Shown here: positions 8,820-49,346 of the stretch, piece by piece
Position numbering within the stretch: position 1 is the stretch's first letter
Layout of the letters: every line of letters begins with the position of its first letter
Source of the DNA: an uncultured bacterium
GTDB taxonomy: Bacteria; Patescibacteriota; Minisyncoccia; Phycocordibacterales; CAIZLB01
Assembly (NCBI GenBank): GCA_903848795.1
Contig: CAINHC010000006.1
Location: 1 to 51,378, forward strand
Length of the DNA: 51,378 bases
Reading direction: 5' to 3'
The notes under the pieces: model-generated
Seen by the model: only the letters and a program-made list of their open reading frames with translations
What the model was told of the DNA's origin: nothing
The model's database searches: none
Program-made: the position numbers and the translations under genes

Positions 8820-9695
8820 ATGAACTCAATAATTCCACAACTCATCGTCAATAGTATAATCGCAGGGTCAATATACTCACTTGTTGCGCTTGGATTCAAC
8901 TTAATCTTTGGTACCACAAAATTTTTCAATATCAATCATGGTGTGGTTTCAACCATAGCGGGATACACCGTTTTTTCTTTGGCAAAAAATCATGGAATGG
9001 ATATTTGGTTGGCAATAATTATTGCGGTAATCTTCACTGGGTTTGTTGGATATTTATCTGAGAAATTTGTCTTCTTGAAAATGAGAGAAAAGCGAGCATC
9101 CGGAATGGTGATGCTTGTTGCCTCGCTCGGCCTATTTACCGCACTTCAAGCGATTATTGCAATTATCTTCACAAGTCAATTCCAAACAATCTCAACAAAC
9201 TTTGGTGAGTCAAAAGTTTATAATATCTTTGGTGGAATTATAACTGAGACCCAGCTCATTATTTTGGCTGCTGCAATTTTGATAACCGCAGTGCTTGGTC
9301 TTTCGATGAAATATACTAAGTTTGGAAAGGCTGTGAAGGCGATTAGCGATGACGTGGAGGTTGCAAAGATTGTTGGAATTAACGCGAATAAAATTATCGC
9401 CAAGGTCTTTTTTATAGGATCGATGATCGCTGGTGTTGCTGGAATTGCGATTGGATTTGATACTGGAATTGAACCGACTATGGGAATGAATCTGTTGTTG
9501 AAAGGAGTTATAGCTTCAATTATTGGGGGTGTTGGAAACGTTTATGGTGGAGTTCTGGGAGCATTCTTCTTGGGGTTTGTTGAGAACTTTGGTATTTGGA
9601 AAATTTCTGGAGAATGGAAAGACGCCATTGCATTTGGCGTCTTAATCCTGTTTCTAATATTTAAGCCGGGAGGAATAATGGGGAAGAAGGGATAG
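8820..9695 (+). CDS. livH: Branched-chain amino-acid-type ABC transporter permease, LivH
   Basis: A 291-aa multi-spanning inner-membrane permease (about eight hydrophobic segments). The LivH signature GFNLIFGTTKFFNINHGVV (residues ~23-41) and the cytoplasmic coupling region AVKAISDDVEVAKIVGIN are present, and GGVGNVYGGVLGAFFLGFVE closes the core. It is the only permease of this type in the window. The usual partner LivM is not seen between the two binding proteins and the nitroreductase, so the channel may be a LivH homodimer or LivM may lie elsewhere. Expression probably comes from the repeat-borne promoter upstream. It ends at a bidirectional terminator. Confidence 0.9.
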   Translation: MNSIIPQLIVNSIIAGSIYSLVALGFNLIFGTTKFFNINHGVVSTIAGYTVFSLAKNHGMDIWLAIIIAVIFTGFVGYLSEKFVFLKMREKRASGMVMLVASLGLFTALQAIIAIIFTSQFQTISTNFGESKVYNIFGGIITETQLIILAAAILITAVLGLSMKYTKFGKAVKAISDDVEVAKIVGINANKIIAKVFFIGSMIAGVAGIAIGFDTGIEPTMGMNLLLKGVIASIIGGVGNVYGGVLGAFFLGFVENFGIWKISGEWKDAIAFGVLILFLIFKPGGIMGKKG

Positions 9696-16683: not shown

Positions 16684-16697
16684 TTTTTATGCGTAAA

Positions 16698-16767
16698 AAT
16701 TGTGCCAAAATCAGCAGATTTTGGCCAAAGTGCAAGCGTGCAAATCGTGTCGAAATCAGCAGATTTT
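16698..16767. repeat. Tandem AGCA-loop hairpins upstream of priA
   Basis: Two direct copies of a 25-bp unit (16698-16722 and 16743-16767, 3 differences, period 45) contain AAATCAGCAGATTT. The first folds as GCCAAAATC-AGCA-GATTTTGGC (16704-16725). The loop and flanks (TCAGCAGA) recur in the foldback elements at 24.6, 25.5 and 49.3 kb. Confidence 0.65.
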
Positions 16768-22711: not shown

Positions 22712-24502
22712 CTATTTCGTAATCCCTTTCTCCGCTCTCTCTCTTCCTGTCTTTGTCAAAAACTTTTTACGTAGTCTTGCTGAAGTTGGTGTGATTTCTA
22801 GATATTCATCTTCACACATTATTTCAAGTCCTCTTTCAATTGTAACCTCAAGTGCTGGGGCAAGATAAATTGTCTCATCAGTTCCTGAGGCACGCATGTT
22901 TGTAAGTTGCTTTCCTTTAGTTGGGTTAACTTCCATTTCTTCTCCCTTAGATGTATTTCCAATAACCATTCCCGCATAAACTTCAGTTCCAGGAGCAACA
23001 TAAAGTGTTCCTCTATCTTGTAGGTTACCAAGTGCAAAGTGTAGTACCTTTCCACTTTCCATTGAAATCATAGATCCAACTGCTCTTTTCTCAATTGTAC
23101 CAACGTGAGGTCTGAAGTCTTCAAAACGGGAAGACATAATTCCTTCTCCTCTTGTGTCGATAACGAATTGACTTCTATAACCAAGAAGGCCACGAGTTGG
23201 GATATCAAATGTCATTCTTGTAATACCGCCATGGTCCTTCATTGAAGTCATGATTCCTTTTCTTCTTCCAAGCTTATCAATAACAGCACCTGAGAATTCA
23301 CTTGGTGTGTCAATAACAACTTCTTCAAAAGGCTCACATTTTTCTCCATCGATTTCTTTTATAATAACTTCAGGTTGAGAAACTTGTAGTTCATATCCTT
23401 CACGACGCATTTGTTCAAGTAGAACGGCGATGTGCAGTTCTCCACGTCCGTAGACCTTAAGAACATCAGCTTGATCAAAATCAACATGAAGACCAACGTT
23501 AACCTCGAGCTCTTTTTCTAATCTATCTCTGATTTGACGTCCTGTAACATATTTACCTTCTCTACCCGCAAAAGGAGAATCGTTAACAAGAAAACCAAGA
23601 GAAATTGTTGGCTCATCAATTTTAATGGAAGGCAATGGCTCTGTATCTTCTTTATCAGTAATTGTTTCTCCGATAAAGATATCAGAAAGTCCAGCAATCA
23701 TCACAACATCGCCAGAATATGCTTCCTTAACTTCTTTTCTTGAAAGACCATCGAATGTGAAAAGCTTTGTGATTCTACCAGTTCTTGTTTCTCCAGTATC
23801 TTTTTTAATAAACAAAGTTTGACCCATTTTAAGAGTTCCAGTCCAAATACGAGTAACGGCCATTCTTCCTAGGAAGTTATCGTAAGCAAGGTTGAAAGGT
23901 TGAGCTTCAAGAGTTTCCTCGGGTGCACTCTTTGCAGGAGGAACTTCTTTTATAATAGTATCGAGTAGGGGATCTAGGTTTACGAATTCATCCTCAAGAT
24001 TTAGCTTCGCCTTTCCTTCACGACCAATACAATAGACCATAGGGAAGTCTAATTGATGGTCTTGGGCACCAAGTTCAATGAAAAGCTCTAATATTTCATC
24101 ATGAACTCTAGTTGGGTTTGCAGCTGGCTTATCGAGTTTATTAAGAACCACGATAGGTTTAAGTCCAAGCTCAAGAGATTTTTTAAGTACGAAACGAGTT
24201 TGGGGCATTGGTCCTTCTTGTGCATCCACAATCAAAAGCACACAGTCAATTGATCTTAAGACGCGCTCTACCTCTGATCCAAAGTCGGCGTGACCTGGTG
24301 TGTCGATAACATTGACTTTTGTTCCTTTGTACTCAAATGAGGCGTTTTTGGCATATATAGTAATACCACGCTCAAGTTCAATGGCGTTAGAGTCCATAGA
24401 AACTGCATCTTTGACAGCTCCTGTGTATTTCATAATGGCGTCAACGATGGTTGTTTTACCGTGGTCAACGTGGGCGATAATCGCGATGTTTCGTATTTGC
24501 AT
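22712..24502 (-). CDS. typA: Translational GTPase TypA/BipA
   Basis: A 596-aa ribosome-associated GTPase of the EF-G-like group that helps 50S assembly and stress adaptation. G1 is AHVDHGKTT (residues 10-18), the switch II DTPGHADF follows, and NKLDKP is the NKxD motif. The domain II signature AVTRIWTGTLKMGQ, the BipA-specific ERGITI and KEIDGEKCEPFE segments, and the C-terminal SGKVLHFALGNLQDRG stretch are all present. Length and order are normal. The gene is transcribed away from the foldback element at 24551-24660, which starts ~50 bp before its ATG. Confidence 0.95.
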   Translation of the reverse strand: MQIRNIAIIAHVDHGKTTIVDAIMKYTGAVKDAVSMDSNAIELERGITIYAKNASFEYKGTKVNVIDTPGHADFGSEVERVLRSIDCVLLIVDAQEGPMPQTRFVLKKSLELGLKPIVVLNKLDKPAANPTRVHDEILELFIELGAQDHQLDFPMVYCIGREGKAKLNLEDEFVNLDPLLDTIIKEVPPAKSAPEETLEAQPFNLAYDNFLGRMAVTRIWTGTLKMGQTLFIKKDTGETRTGRITKLFTFDGLSRKEVKEAYSGDVVMIAGLSDIFIGETITDKEDTEPLPSIKIDEPTISLGFLVNDSPFAGREGKYVTGRQIRDRLEKELEVNVGLHVDFDQADVLKVYGRGELHIAVLLEQMRREGYELQVSQPEVIIKEIDGEKCEPFEEVVIDTPSEFSGAVIDKLGRRKGIMTSMKDHGGITRMTFDIPTRGLLGYRSQFVIDTRGEGIMSSRFEDFRPHVGTIEKRAVGSMISMESGKVLHFALGNLQDRGTLYVAPGTEVYAGMVIGNTSKGEEMEVNPTKGKQLTNMRASGTDETIYLAPALEVTIERGLEIMCEDEYLEITPTSARLRKKFLTKTGRERAEKGITK

Positions 24503-24550: not shown

Positions 24551-24660
24551 CCAGAAACAAGGAGAACCACCCCATAAGAGAACGCCAGTTTTCTGCTGAA
24601 AACTGGCTCTGCTCACTGCAGTTCGCAAGTCTCTTATGGGGTGGTTCTCCTTGTTTTTGG
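24551..24660 (-). repeat. Foldback element E1 (110 bp)
   Basis: Arms of 30 bp (24551-24580 and 24631-24660) are inverted copies with one mismatch. The 50-nt interior contains a second hairpin, GCCAGTTTTC / GAAAACTGGC, with a 4-nt apical loop. Read on the minus strand, the whole element aligns with E2 at 25466-25569. The core differences between them are compensatory, so the structure itself is conserved. Confidence 0.85.
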
Positions 24661-24816
24661 AATACAGGATTAGATTAATATGGTTACCTTCATGATTTAT
24701 TAACCTCGAGGTGGTGGGCGCGTCCAAGGTGTTGAACCATTACGAGGGGATTGACGGATTGACATAATATGGTATATTCATGCCAGCAATTGGACCTTAC
24801 AAAACGTTGTCTCTTG

Positions 24817-24866
24817 ACTGCATCTTTGAGGATATCGATTACTCTACGTATCCTGAAAGATGCAGT
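24817..24866 (+). promoter_or_regulatory. Strong leader hairpin before the orphan gene at 24917
   Basis: ACTGCATCTTT (24817-24827) pairs with AAAGATGCAGT (24856-24866), and AGGATA pairs with TATCCT inside it. There is one opposed G-G between the two helices. It lies in the ~137-nt leader and is followed by an unstructured CAA-rich run up to the ATG. Confidence 0.6.
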
Positions 24867-24916
24867 TACAAACTATAGACTGTACATCAATACAACAAAC
24901 AACAACAACGATAACC

Positions 24917-25309
24917 ATGAAACTGACAACACAACTACTAGCCGCCTTCATCGGTGGCCAATTTGAAGTTCAAAACACCGACGAGAAGTACATCTATCGA
25001 GGTGAAATCAAAACGGCGGAGGTTGTGGGCGGGGAATTGTCCATGACCTTCAGTTGGATGGCTAGAGGTGAAGGTTTTCCACCTATCCCCACAGGGTGGG
25101 TCAATGAAAGTAATCTCACTTACGAAGCCAGTCTCGGGGACTACGCCTACATCGCCAGCGATATCGGACCCGGCCGTGAAGGTGGCGACAATCGTCTCTG
25201 TATTCATTCAACACTCATCGGCGAGTTGGGTGTGTTTTATCCACCTAACGGAAGTAAGCTCGACCCAACAAGAGTCAAAGGGCTCGAGTTGGGTGCCACA
25301 GTCAAATAA
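24917..25309 (+). CDS. Orphan protein of unknown function, 130 aa
   Basis: I do not recognise this protein. The ATG at 24917 (MKLTTQLLAAFIGGQFEVQN) is chosen over 24860 because the latter lies inside the leader hairpin. It is a beta-rich soluble protein with a WMARG and a Gly-rich ASDIGPGREGGDNR segment. The start could hint at a weak signal but has no clear cleavage site. Composition is far GC-richer than the core genes (32 of 60 bases are G or C at 25021-25080, against 22 of 60 at 37141-37200 in mrdA). It is flanked on both sides by members of the same foldback family and has its own terminator, so it looks like an inserted cassette. Confidence 0.55.
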   Translation: MKLTTQLLAAFIGGQFEVQNTDEKYIYRGEIKTAEVVGGELSMTFSWMARGEGFPPIPTGWVNESNLTYEASLGDYAYIASDIGPGREGGDNRLCIHSTLIGELGVFYPPNGSKLDPTRVKGLELGATVK

Positions 25310-25327
25310 CCCAACCTCCACCTCAAC

Positions 25328-25390
25328 CCCGTCGAGAAGAAGTCACGCACTTGTTGCGTGGCCCACATCTCGTGCGGGGCTTTTTCTTTT
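25328..25390 (+). terminator. Branched GC-rich terminator
   Basis: An outer stem pairs CCCCG with CGGGG and, one base in, CGAGA with TCTCG. An inner hairpin CACGC ... GCGTG sits between, followed by CTTTTTCTTTTTT. Confidence 0.75.
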
Positions 25391-25465
25391 TTCAATTTTC
25401 AATTTTATTTACAATCTTATGGATTGTTTGTATCAATTTTTTAGAAAAGTTTTTACTAAACATGT

Positions 25466-25569
25466 GGACAAGAAATATATCCCATTAAAGAGCCTTGCGA
25501 GTTGCAACGAGCAGAGCCAATTCTCAGCAGAGAATTGGCGTGCTCTTTAATGGGATATATTTCTTGTCC
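25466..25569 (+). repeat. Foldback element E2 (104 bp)
   Basis: Perfect 28-bp inverted arms (25466-25493 and 25542-25569) enclose a 48-nt interior with the hairpin GCCAATTCTC / GAGAATTGGC around an AGCA loop, plus the small palindrome GTTGCAAC. It is homologous to E1 in the opposite orientation. Confidence 0.88.
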
Positions 25570-25618
25570 GTGTATATATGGAAAACTTTCCAAAAAATAT
25601 GATATAATACTTCCAAGT

Positions 25619-27154
25619 ATGAAAATAAATATGAAAAAGTTTTGGTCTGTCTTGAAATTAAAGAAAGTGTATATTTCTATAATTGTAATTATTCTTGCAA
25701 TTGTTCTATATAAATCATTTTCCACTAATTCTTCCACTGAAACTATAATCACTCTTGCGCCCACCACTTTTGTCCAAGAAGTCTCTGTGACTGGAAAAGT
25801 ACAAGCTGCTAATAATGTGGATATGGGTTTTGAGGCAGTTGGTAGAGTCGCTAATGTAAACGCTAAAGTGGGTCAGCAGGTCAAAAAAGGTGACCTTCTA
25901 GTTTCTCTTGCAAATGGCGATGCTTACGGAACAGTTTTACAACGTCAAGCTAATTTGGATGATATTGTAAACGGAGCTCGTAAGGAAGATATTTCTATAG
26001 CAGAATCTGATGTTCAGTCTGCTCAATCCACATTAGACCAAAACACTCAGTCTTTAGTTGATAAAATTAAGGAAGTTTATTCTGTTGTTGATGATGCGAT
26101 GAAAACAAAAGCTGACCAATTATTTACAAACCCTAGAACTGTTAATCCAGAAGTTATTGTATTCAATAATGGACGTGATGATTTTTTCAATTTAAAAATT
26201 TCTATAGATGCGAAGAGAGTTAAGCTTGGTGAAAATCTTAATGCTCTTTCGCTAAAAAATGCATCGCTATCGGTTGCAAATTTAAGTGAAGATTATATTA
26301 ATCAAACCAGAGATACTCTTACATTAGCTAAGTCTCTCTTGGATGATTTATCAATGGTTGCTTCCTCTGTACAAGTTAATGGTGGAGTTACTCAAGCAAC
26401 GGTAGATGGGTATAAAAATAGCATATCGTTAGCTCGAACTTCAGTTAATGCCGAGGCGCTTAGTCTAACAATGGCGGAGCAAAGTTATAATGTAAGTAAG
26501 TCAGGACTAGAGAGAGCAAGACAACAACTATCATTAAAGAAAGCTGGTGCTACCTCGGATGAGATTAGGGCCGCTCAAGCACAACTTCAATCTGCACGAG
26601 CTGTTCTTGCGAAGACTTTAATTTCTGCTCCATTTGATGGAATAGTTACAAAAATGGATGCTAAAGAAGGGGAGAGTGTAAATCTTGGATCTACTTATGT
26701 ATCGATGATAAGCGCAGCAAACTTTGAAGTTGAAAGTTATGTTTCTGAATCTGATATTGCAAAAGTAAAAGTTAGTCAACCGGCAAGAATTACTCTTGAT
26801 ACTTATGGTAAGGATGTAATTTTCCCAGCAACGGTTTATGAAGTTGATCCAGCAGAAACCGTGGTTGATGGTGTAACAACTTACAAGATTAAATTATCTT
26901 TTAATCAAGCGGATGATAGAATTAAATCTGGAATGACCGCAAATATTACTATTGAGACATCCAATAAGCCATCAACTTTTGTTGTGCCACAGGAGGCATT
27001 GTTCTTAAATGCTGGGGAGAAAATGGTGACAGTTGATCAGGGTGGAAAGAGAATTGATAAAAAAGTTGAGACAGGTGGGCTAAACGCCAACGGGGAAATC
27101 GAAATTATCTCTGGATTGGTTGCTGGTGAGAGGATTGTTGTCAAAGGTAAATAA
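25619..27154 (+). CDS. HlyD/MacA-type membrane-fusion (adaptor) protein
   Basis: A 511-aa adaptor with one N-terminal membrane helix (about residues 18-35) and a large extracytoplasmic part. It shows the barrel-sandwich halves (VGRVANVNAKVGQQVKKGDLLVSL early, TLISAPFDGIVTKMDAKEGESVNLGS late), a long helical hairpin between them, and beta-barrel/membrane-proximal domains (VSQPARITLDTYGKDVIFPATV; FVVPQEALF). The adaptor normally links an inner-membrane ABC transporter to an exit duct. With no outer membrane expected it may instead gate substrates at the cell surface. The ATG at 25619 is favoured because TATAAT lies at 25603-25608. It is followed at 15 bp by the permease and then by an ATPase. 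Confidence 0.88.
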   Translation: MKINMKKFWSVLKLKKVYISIIVIILAIVLYKSFSTNSSTETIITLAPTTFVQEVSVTGKVQAANNVDMGFEAVGRVANVNAKVGQQVKKGDLLVSLANGDAYGTVLQRQANLDDIVNGARKEDISIAESDVQSAQSTLDQNTQSLVDKIKEVYSVVDDAMKTKADQLFTNPRTVNPEVIVFNNGRDDFFNLKISIDAKRVKLGENLNALSLKNASLSVANLSEDYINQTRDTLTLAKSLLDDLSMVASSVQVNGGVTQATVDGYKNSISLARTSVNAEALSLTMAEQSYNVSKSGLERARQQLSLKKAGATSDEIRAAQAQLQSARAVLAKTLISAPFDGIVTKMDAKEGESVNLGSTYVSMISAANFEVESYVSESDIAKVKVSQPARITLDTYGKDVIFPATVYEVDPAETVVDGVTTYKIKLSFNQADDRIKSGMTANITIETSNKPSTFVVPQEALFLNAGEKMVTVDQGGKRIDKKVETGGLNANGEIEIISGLVAGERIVVKGK

Positions 27155-30798: not shown

Positions 30799-30879
30799 GG
30801 GGCAGTCGACACCATGATCGAGGATCACCCAGTAGGTGATCCTGCTGAATCACCCAGTAGGTGATCCTGCTGAATCACC
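30799..30879. repeat. CGGGGCAGTCG block plus 25-bp tandem hairpins
   Basis: A block shared with the livH leader (30799-30824) runs into 2.2 tandem units of period 25: ATCACCCAGTAGGTGAT (30824-30840, 30849-30865), each followed by CCTGCTGA. Each 17-mer is itself a hairpin. The same unit forms the arms of the foldback at 49233-49346. Confidence 0.7.
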
Positions 30880-49203: not shown

Positions 49204-49346
49204 AAAGCCACGTCTTGGGCTCCCTATTTGTCCACCCAGTAGGTGATTTTGCTAAATCAAGAGCGTAGCTATTGGATACAAATAGCAGTACCTTTAGGTG
49301 GTCACTAGAGGTGAACATGCGATTCAGCAGAATCGCCTACTGGGTG
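49204..49346. repeat. Foldback element E3 with AAAGCCACGTCTTGGG flank
   Basis: Arms of 26 bp (49233-49258 and 49321-49346) are inverted copies with three differences, two of them G-T wobbles. They carry the CACCCAGTAGGTG unit of the 30.8-kb repeat and an AGCA-loop hairpin (GATTC-AGCA-GAATC). The 62-nt interior contains GCTATT ... AAATAGC. The 16-nt core shared with 46514-46529 lies just left of the arm. Confidence 0.75.

Follow-up and report, generated by a model that had tools for sequence, protein, structure and literature searches.

Several described systems resemble the folded sequences reported here. REP and REPIN sequences, with their RAYT (Y1) partners, are short, intergenic, palindromic, multi-copy and non-autonomous and often lie near gene ends, and bacterial MITEs such as Correia, ERIC and RUP are dispersed, non-autonomous foldbacks of about 100 bp; our element resembles both in these respects. 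Two-way intrinsic terminators likewise carry an A-tract, a stem and a T-tract on both strands and are situated just past stop codons, while attC sites are imperfect hairpins in which structure weighs more than sequence. Finally, template switches are reported to copy nearby DNA in inverted orientation and to create and maintain a perfect hairpin in a single event, thereby mimicking compensatory mutation (PMC8794818; PMC8604942).

The window, i.e., the whole 51,378-nt stretch of DNA analysed here, contains two elements, E1 and E2, which an earlier note on this sequence had described as foldbacks with similar cores and long paired arms. Their coordinates, cores and arms were all reproduced. The features of the locus are as follows.

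24551–24660, minus strand: element E1, whole (outer stem, H1 and H2), about 50 bp upstream of the typA start
24630–24660, minus strand: E1 5' arm (element orientation), 31 positions, 30 of them Watson–Crick paired with 24551–24581
24551–24581, minus strand: E1 3' arm (element orientation), pairing with the E1 5' arm
24609–24628, minus strand: E1 hairpin H1, UUGC.GA.AC-UGCA-GU.GA.GCAG, with a tandem G.A internal loop (covariation)
24584–24607, minus strand: E1 hairpin H2, loop AGCA (core comparison, fold and covariation)
25466–25569, plus strand: element E2, whole, upstream of the HlyD-like gene
25466–25493, plus strand: E2 5' arm, 28 of 28 positions Watson–Crick paired with 25542–25569
25542–25569, plus strand: E2 3' arm, pairing with the E2 5' arm
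25495–25514, plus strand: E2 hairpin H1, UUGC.GA.GU-UGCA-AC.GA.GCAG (covariation)
25516–25539, plus strand: E2 hairpin H2, loop AGCA (core comparison, fold and covariation)
25396–25453, no strand assigned: decayed inverted copy of 25582–25637, in register with the E2 arms but external to them (score 25, against 13 at the 99% quantile of controls); partly recovered also as inverted pair I1
25582–25637, plus strand: apparently copied host sequence, containing the -10 box TATAAT (25603–25608) and the start codon (25619) of the HlyD-like gene
25619–27154, plus strand: gene for an HlyD-type membrane-fusion protein, downstream of E2 (Pfam PF16576; context, outside the element)
22712–24502, minus strand: typA/bipA, downstream of E1 (Pfam BipA_C; context)

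Both cores are 48 nt long and are enclosed by arms of 31 bp in E1 (30 Watson–Crick) and 28 bp in E2 (all Watson–Crick). The eight differences between the cores, recognised earlier as four base-pair swaps, were again found to form such swaps, with H2 and the apical H1 stem contributing two each, and the junction-closing pair adds a fifth (A-T in E1, C-G in E2). Regarding fold stability, both elements gave a z-score of about -13 and none of 200 dinucleotide shuffles was as stable, ruling out chance as the origin of either fold.

Both elements belong to a family of short folded repeats, dispersed and non-autonomous, that had not been described before. The earlier note had proposed a covariance-model search, which returned homologues in many genomes and established that the core covariation is real. 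Together with BLAST, it identified 10 additional copies in the source genome (1.02 Mb), with E-values, to be taken as rough, from 1e-24 to 4e-15, bringing the number there to 12, E1 and E2 included; the model was built from an alignment of 11 of these 12 copies. The model found the family in 19 of 31 genomes (the source and its relatives), in 64 of the 148 genomes sampled from the order, in about 17 genomes of other orders of the same class, and in one genome outside the class. The sampled genomes, one per species and mostly metagenome assemblies, ranged from 0.4 to 1.2 Mb, sizes in keeping with the Patescibacteria named in the earlier note. In the scan of 148 genomes, the number of copies varied among related genomes from 0 to at least 27; since only part of each genome's candidates was scored in the large scans, the copy numbers are minima, and absence stands for no copy found. 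An exact search of a public species collection with the core type of this genus returned only records of uncultured bacteria, mostly with lake- or pond-type sample names. The failure of the earlier note to match a known family also holds against Rfam 15, where the matches were weak, mostly to microRNA hairpins, and none reached the gathering score. Likewise, no match was found in the literature on inverted target duplication, mobile hairpins, repeats in these bacteria or terminator-targeting elements. If the assignment is right, a large unannotated repeat family would be present across some 40% of the genomes of the order.

All good copies form a three-way junction composed of an outer stem of about 20–30 bp and the hairpins H1 and H2. 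In the source genus, H1 reads UUGC-GA-RY-UGCA-RY-GA-GCAG, with a tandem G.A loop interrupting the stem; in other genera its apical part is longer (e.g., GGGC GACUG GCCC) and the tandem G.A is almost always retained. H2 is a 10-bp hairpin, usually with the loop AGCA and in many genera with one bulged A; between it and H1, some copies have an additional hairpin. The covariation of the core is overwhelming. Across 80 copies, 97.1% of 2860 cells were paired, both-sided changes occurred in 35 of 36 pairs, and 964 cells were double-changed; shuffles gave 259 such cells and slid controls about 200. The invariant bases are those of the loops, the G.A pairs and the junction, and the stem sequences vary. 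On the element strand, G-U outnumbered A-C by 126 to 2 in H1 (mostly one near-invariant U-G pair), by 25 to 7 in H2 and by 63 to 30 in the arms. Because of this excess, and because the tandem G.A would be a T.C mismatch on the opposite strand, the element's own strand is read as the folded one. It would more likely act as RNA than as single-stranded DNA; covariation with tolerance of G-U on one strand is what was found, as in structured RNAs, and single-stranded DNA is also compatible with it.

Some copies show additional structural features. Tandem G.A mismatches, the same motif as in H1, occur 5–6 bp from the core in the outer stems of independent subfamilies, in G148 (e.g., L227, L222, L223 and L291) and in G018 (L042, L060, L107, L108 and L113). 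The extra hairpin between H1 and H2 (TGATTTCCGTTCCCCATAAGGAAATCA-like) is common to L033, L032, L077, L058, L078, L065 (2312–2417) and L081. The copy at L027 in the source genome is orthologous to that at L078 and does not have this hairpin, suggesting that parts of the core may be exchanged between copies. Other arrangements with AGCA loops were also observed. One hairpin type (GGTGATTCAGCAGGATCACCTACTGGGTGA-like) is situated at about 30835–30879 (minus strand, in tandem), at 49318–49337 (plus strand) and at about 5534–5553 of L009, and a further arrangement of two adjacent hairpins (ATTTTT..CGTAAAAAT, then an AGCA-loop hairpin) is situated at about 16684–16726 (plus strand) and on the minus strand of L010 at an offset of about 4313 (C31).

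The copies are intergenic. In the source genus, many are located directly upstream of a promoter and oriented like the next gene; in other genera, the 3' side of the element adjoins the stop codon of an antisense gene, and in 35 of 64 cases this stop and the inner end of the arm are separated by 20–29 nt. At orthologous loci of sister species (upstream of typA in G000, G003 and G002; L054/L063/L038; L029/L076), the flanks align well and the arms differ in sequence, with pairing kept. Conversely, 55 pairs of cores at non-orthologous sites, within and between genomes, are at least 95% identical, many of them 100%, hairpin stems included; in these pairs, likeness was 0.83 over the innermost 6 nt of the arms and 0.44 over the outer 12 nt, compared with 0.31 in unrelated pairs. 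For instance, G148 bears six near-identical cores with about 10 bp of inner arm in common, followed by unique arms of varying length that are almost all perfectly complementary. Since cores that are 95–100% identical carry unrelated arms, we read the arms as remade at each site. Near-identical cores with unrelated arms also occur in different families (G014 L098 and G045 L204, 100%; G026 L106 and G148 L216, 98%), suggesting that the core may move horizontally. As a counter-example, several related copies in G031, G018 and G026 also share part of their outer arms, so some arms may travel or descend together with the core.

The arms themselves are about 95% or more Watson–Crick, with few wobbles. 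Pairing stays at about 90% or more out to some 20 bp and then falls, and the outer 5' end is A-rich, and hence the outer 3' end T-rich, as in two-way terminators. When copies were selected by core sequence only, arms were present at 28 of 28 places and reached at least 15 bp at 27 of them, the lone exception having degenerate 13-nt arms beside a contig edge. Elements aside, inverted repeats reaching 18 bp number no more than a handful in the 1.03 Mb of G004, so chance landing in pre-existing long palindromes is unlikely. This genome contains about 28 hairpins with arms of 16–18 bp, many of them terminator-like, and those of at least 21 bp are almost absent apart from an element itself.

The pairing in part extends beyond the arms. 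For each copy, the sequence upstream of the arms was compared to the reverse complement of the sequence downstream of them, with the 99% quantile of mismatched-pair controls as the cut-off. Inverted homology exceeded this quantile in 27 of 147 copies, where about 1.5 would be expected, and all 27 were in register with the arms; in direct orientation only 1 of 147 did so, and longer direct flank repeats were not enriched. Alignments starting at the inner arm end often extend over 80–110 nt. At E2, the segments 25396–25453 and 25582–25637 are each separated from the arms by a 12-nt gap, and the upstream flank mirrors, in decayed form, the HlyD-like gene's promoter and first codons. Likewise, the downstream promoter and first codons are mirrored upstream at L032, and the 3' end of an antisense gene (C-terminal coding DNA) is mirrored at L097 and L057. 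Overlap with coding sequence, blurred by spurious ORFs, favoured neither direction of copying. The arms thus derive, at least in part, from host DNA. Identical cores with unrelated paired arms, taken with homology that reaches promoter and coding DNA, indicate that local inverted copying accounts for at least part of the pairing.

We therefore favour, with moderate confidence, a mobile structured core, with local DNA copied into arms through snap-back or a template switch. What moves would be a structured core of about 55 nt, comprising H1 with its tandem G.A loop, H2 and the fixed junction bases, which would carry a short inner stem of roughly 6–12 bp between sites and apparently between bacterial families. 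At a new site, local DNA beside the core would be copied in inverted orientation onto its other side. The inner stem would snap back and a DNA end primed there would copy its own flank, either during insertion or soon after, by a replication template switch at the hairpin. Arms that are long, perfectly paired and particular to the site would result; the inverted copy would afterwards decay in its outermost part, and the inner 20–30 bp would stay paired through repeated copying, selection or both. Inverted copying by template switch would thus account for the unique arms, the near-perfect Watson–Crick pairing and the homology overshooting the arms. It leaves unexplained the tandem G.A preserved in covarying stems, so the core must be maintained by structural selection or recent descent. 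From the comparison of copies we infer that the core transposes, that the snap-back step falls at one of the two moments named, and that the element may have a role as a two-way transcription terminator or insulator; its composition and position, as judged from sequence only, fit those of intrinsic terminators.

A bolder version, possible but on the whole unlikely, is that these repeats represent a new class of mobile element in ultra-small bacteria, in which the ~55-nt core would join a host DNA end and self-prime, so that an inverted target duplication forms the arms instead of a direct target-site duplication. It would be moved by a host enzyme or one yet to be recognised and would pass between families of the class. 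If the favoured explanation is right, this would be the first mobile repeat known to us with arms copied from the target at each landing. It would also show that covariation that looks compensatory can stem from copying and need not reflect selection, in a natural system whose many replicate events allow the two to be separated.

The strongest competing explanation, which we nevertheless consider unlikely, is a stationary RNA, or a terminator or insulator, under selection, with the core as a conserved recognition structure and stems that diverge by compensatory mutation. Such an element would occupy sites common to several species of the genus while its arms diverge yet stay paired, as observed, but would hardly be expected to carry unrelated arms on cores that are identical, both hairpins included. 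Wobbles are few in the arms, although G-U does exceed A-C, and the A-rich outer 5' side and the antisense stop codons 20–29 nt from the core (35/64), both reminiscent of a two-way terminator, must be set against inverted homology that reaches promoter and coding DNA and against a copy number running from 0 to at least 27 between related genomes. Also in its favour is the tandem G.A kept within a covarying stem, a loop that pure copying would erase. The earlier note had taken its compensatory differences as selection on structure. For the core this agrees with a structure-conserved, covarying family, whereas compensated changes in the arms need not signal selection.

An improbable alternative is a mobile core with a specific preference for the loops of terminator hairpins already present, in which case the host terminator's stem, with its A- and T-tracts, would provide the outer arms. 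The empty sites bear both on this and on the favoured explanation. The closest genomes diverge by roughly 4–25% at these loci, and sites were compared between species. G004, which was searched whole, has an ordinary terminator at the L027 site and a terminator-like hairpin at the L025 site, and neither arm is clearly present in host DNA at empty sites, so either flank could have served as the template. Several of its apparent empty sites are secondary losses (e.g., the L032 site), a possible remnant of the inverted copy is found at the E2 site, and its empty sites in general can be secondary losses. The distance from core to stop codon would suit a terminator loop, and so would the hairpins of G004 with 16–18 bp arms, but many arms are 20–30 bp long, well past the shared part, and hairpins of 21 bp or more are almost absent from that genome. 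Additionally, several recent arms have no A- or T-tract (G148 L221, L225 and L230), and homology into coding or promoter DNA is left unexplained.

At 8840–8950 of L128 in G004, a 3' half-element (CGGCGTG plus the 3' arm) is situated where G000 and G003 have full copies, which we read as direct evidence of loss by partial deletion. In G148, the copy at about 620–725 of L216 lies between a -35-like TTGACA and the start of an apparent tmRNA gene (GGGGATGA...), and G083 has no element there; the G083 sites matching G148 copies are only about 70–75% identical. Many sites are common across the source genus, so movement there would be infrequent.

Regarding enzymes, the short palindromic core, the conserved loops and the dispersed, intergenic copies could suggest that a Y1 (HUH) transposase mobilises the element as single-stranded DNA in the manner of REP/REPIN or IS200/IS605, with H1 and H2 as the recognised DNA hairpins. 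This seems very improbable, given that Y1_Tnp (PF01797) was not found in the many-copy genomes G011, G014 and G026 and did occur in G022 and G030, two genomes that yielded no element; that a REP-type foot tetranucleotide was not seen, the fixed bases being in loops and junctions; and that REPs have no locus-specific arms. The reverse transcriptase domain PF00078, to be expected if the family were a SINE-like retroelement served in trans, was not found in the copy-bearing genomes G002, G011, G019, G020, G024, G027 and G028, a pattern compatible with a reverse transcriptase since lost. Both enzymes were rejected as obligatory partners, having gone undetected in several genomes with copies. Like integron integrase, neither tracks the presence of the element, which counts against the mobile core.

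We give practically no credence to attC-like recombination sites bounding gene cassettes, for although two copies flank an orphan gene and are imperfect hairpins with conserved unpaired bases, integron integrase (TIGR02249) exceeded its curated cut-off in none of the 31 genomes, it is the centre that is conserved and the arms that vary, opposite to the layout of attC, and the other copies examined sit singly and dispersed. The comparison to the ends of a cassette made in the earlier note was therefore abandoned, as was the cassette idea in general. E1 orthologues in other species are located upstream of typA with different neighbouring genes, and G004, without both elements, has an unrelated gene at the place of the orphan gene (24917–25309; no Pfam match), so gene exchange at this place does not require the elements. 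The leader of the orphan gene (24817–24866) has a hairpin of its own (ACTGCATCTTTGAGGATA ... TATCCTGAAAGATGCAGT), and similar leaders precede unrelated small genes, namely a 106-aa gene at the same locus in G004 (L146) and a 98-aa gene (L143), as well as a 52-aa gene near L028 and a 348-aa gene at the G003 typA locus (L036). Between typA and the HlyD gene, a shared leader seems to be followed by a variable gene.

When compared to the described systems, the family differs from each of them. The attC consensus is absent from the element, and conserved and variable parts are reversed. REP stems are conserved in sequence and bear a GTAG/CGTC-type tag, whereas our element has a two-hairpin junction core and site-specific arms, and Y1 genes do not track its copies. 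The terminal repeats of MITEs are identical in every copy, in contrast to ends that differ per site (outer arms 0.44 alike against a background of 0.31), and no matching transposase was found as a MITE-type partner. The stems of ordinary two-way terminators are shorter and enclose no conserved 50-nt core with a pair of inner hairpins. Lastly, the published template-switch hairpins are single mutations at unrelated sites (PMC8794818; PMC8604942), whereas in the present family every event is centred on one conserved core.
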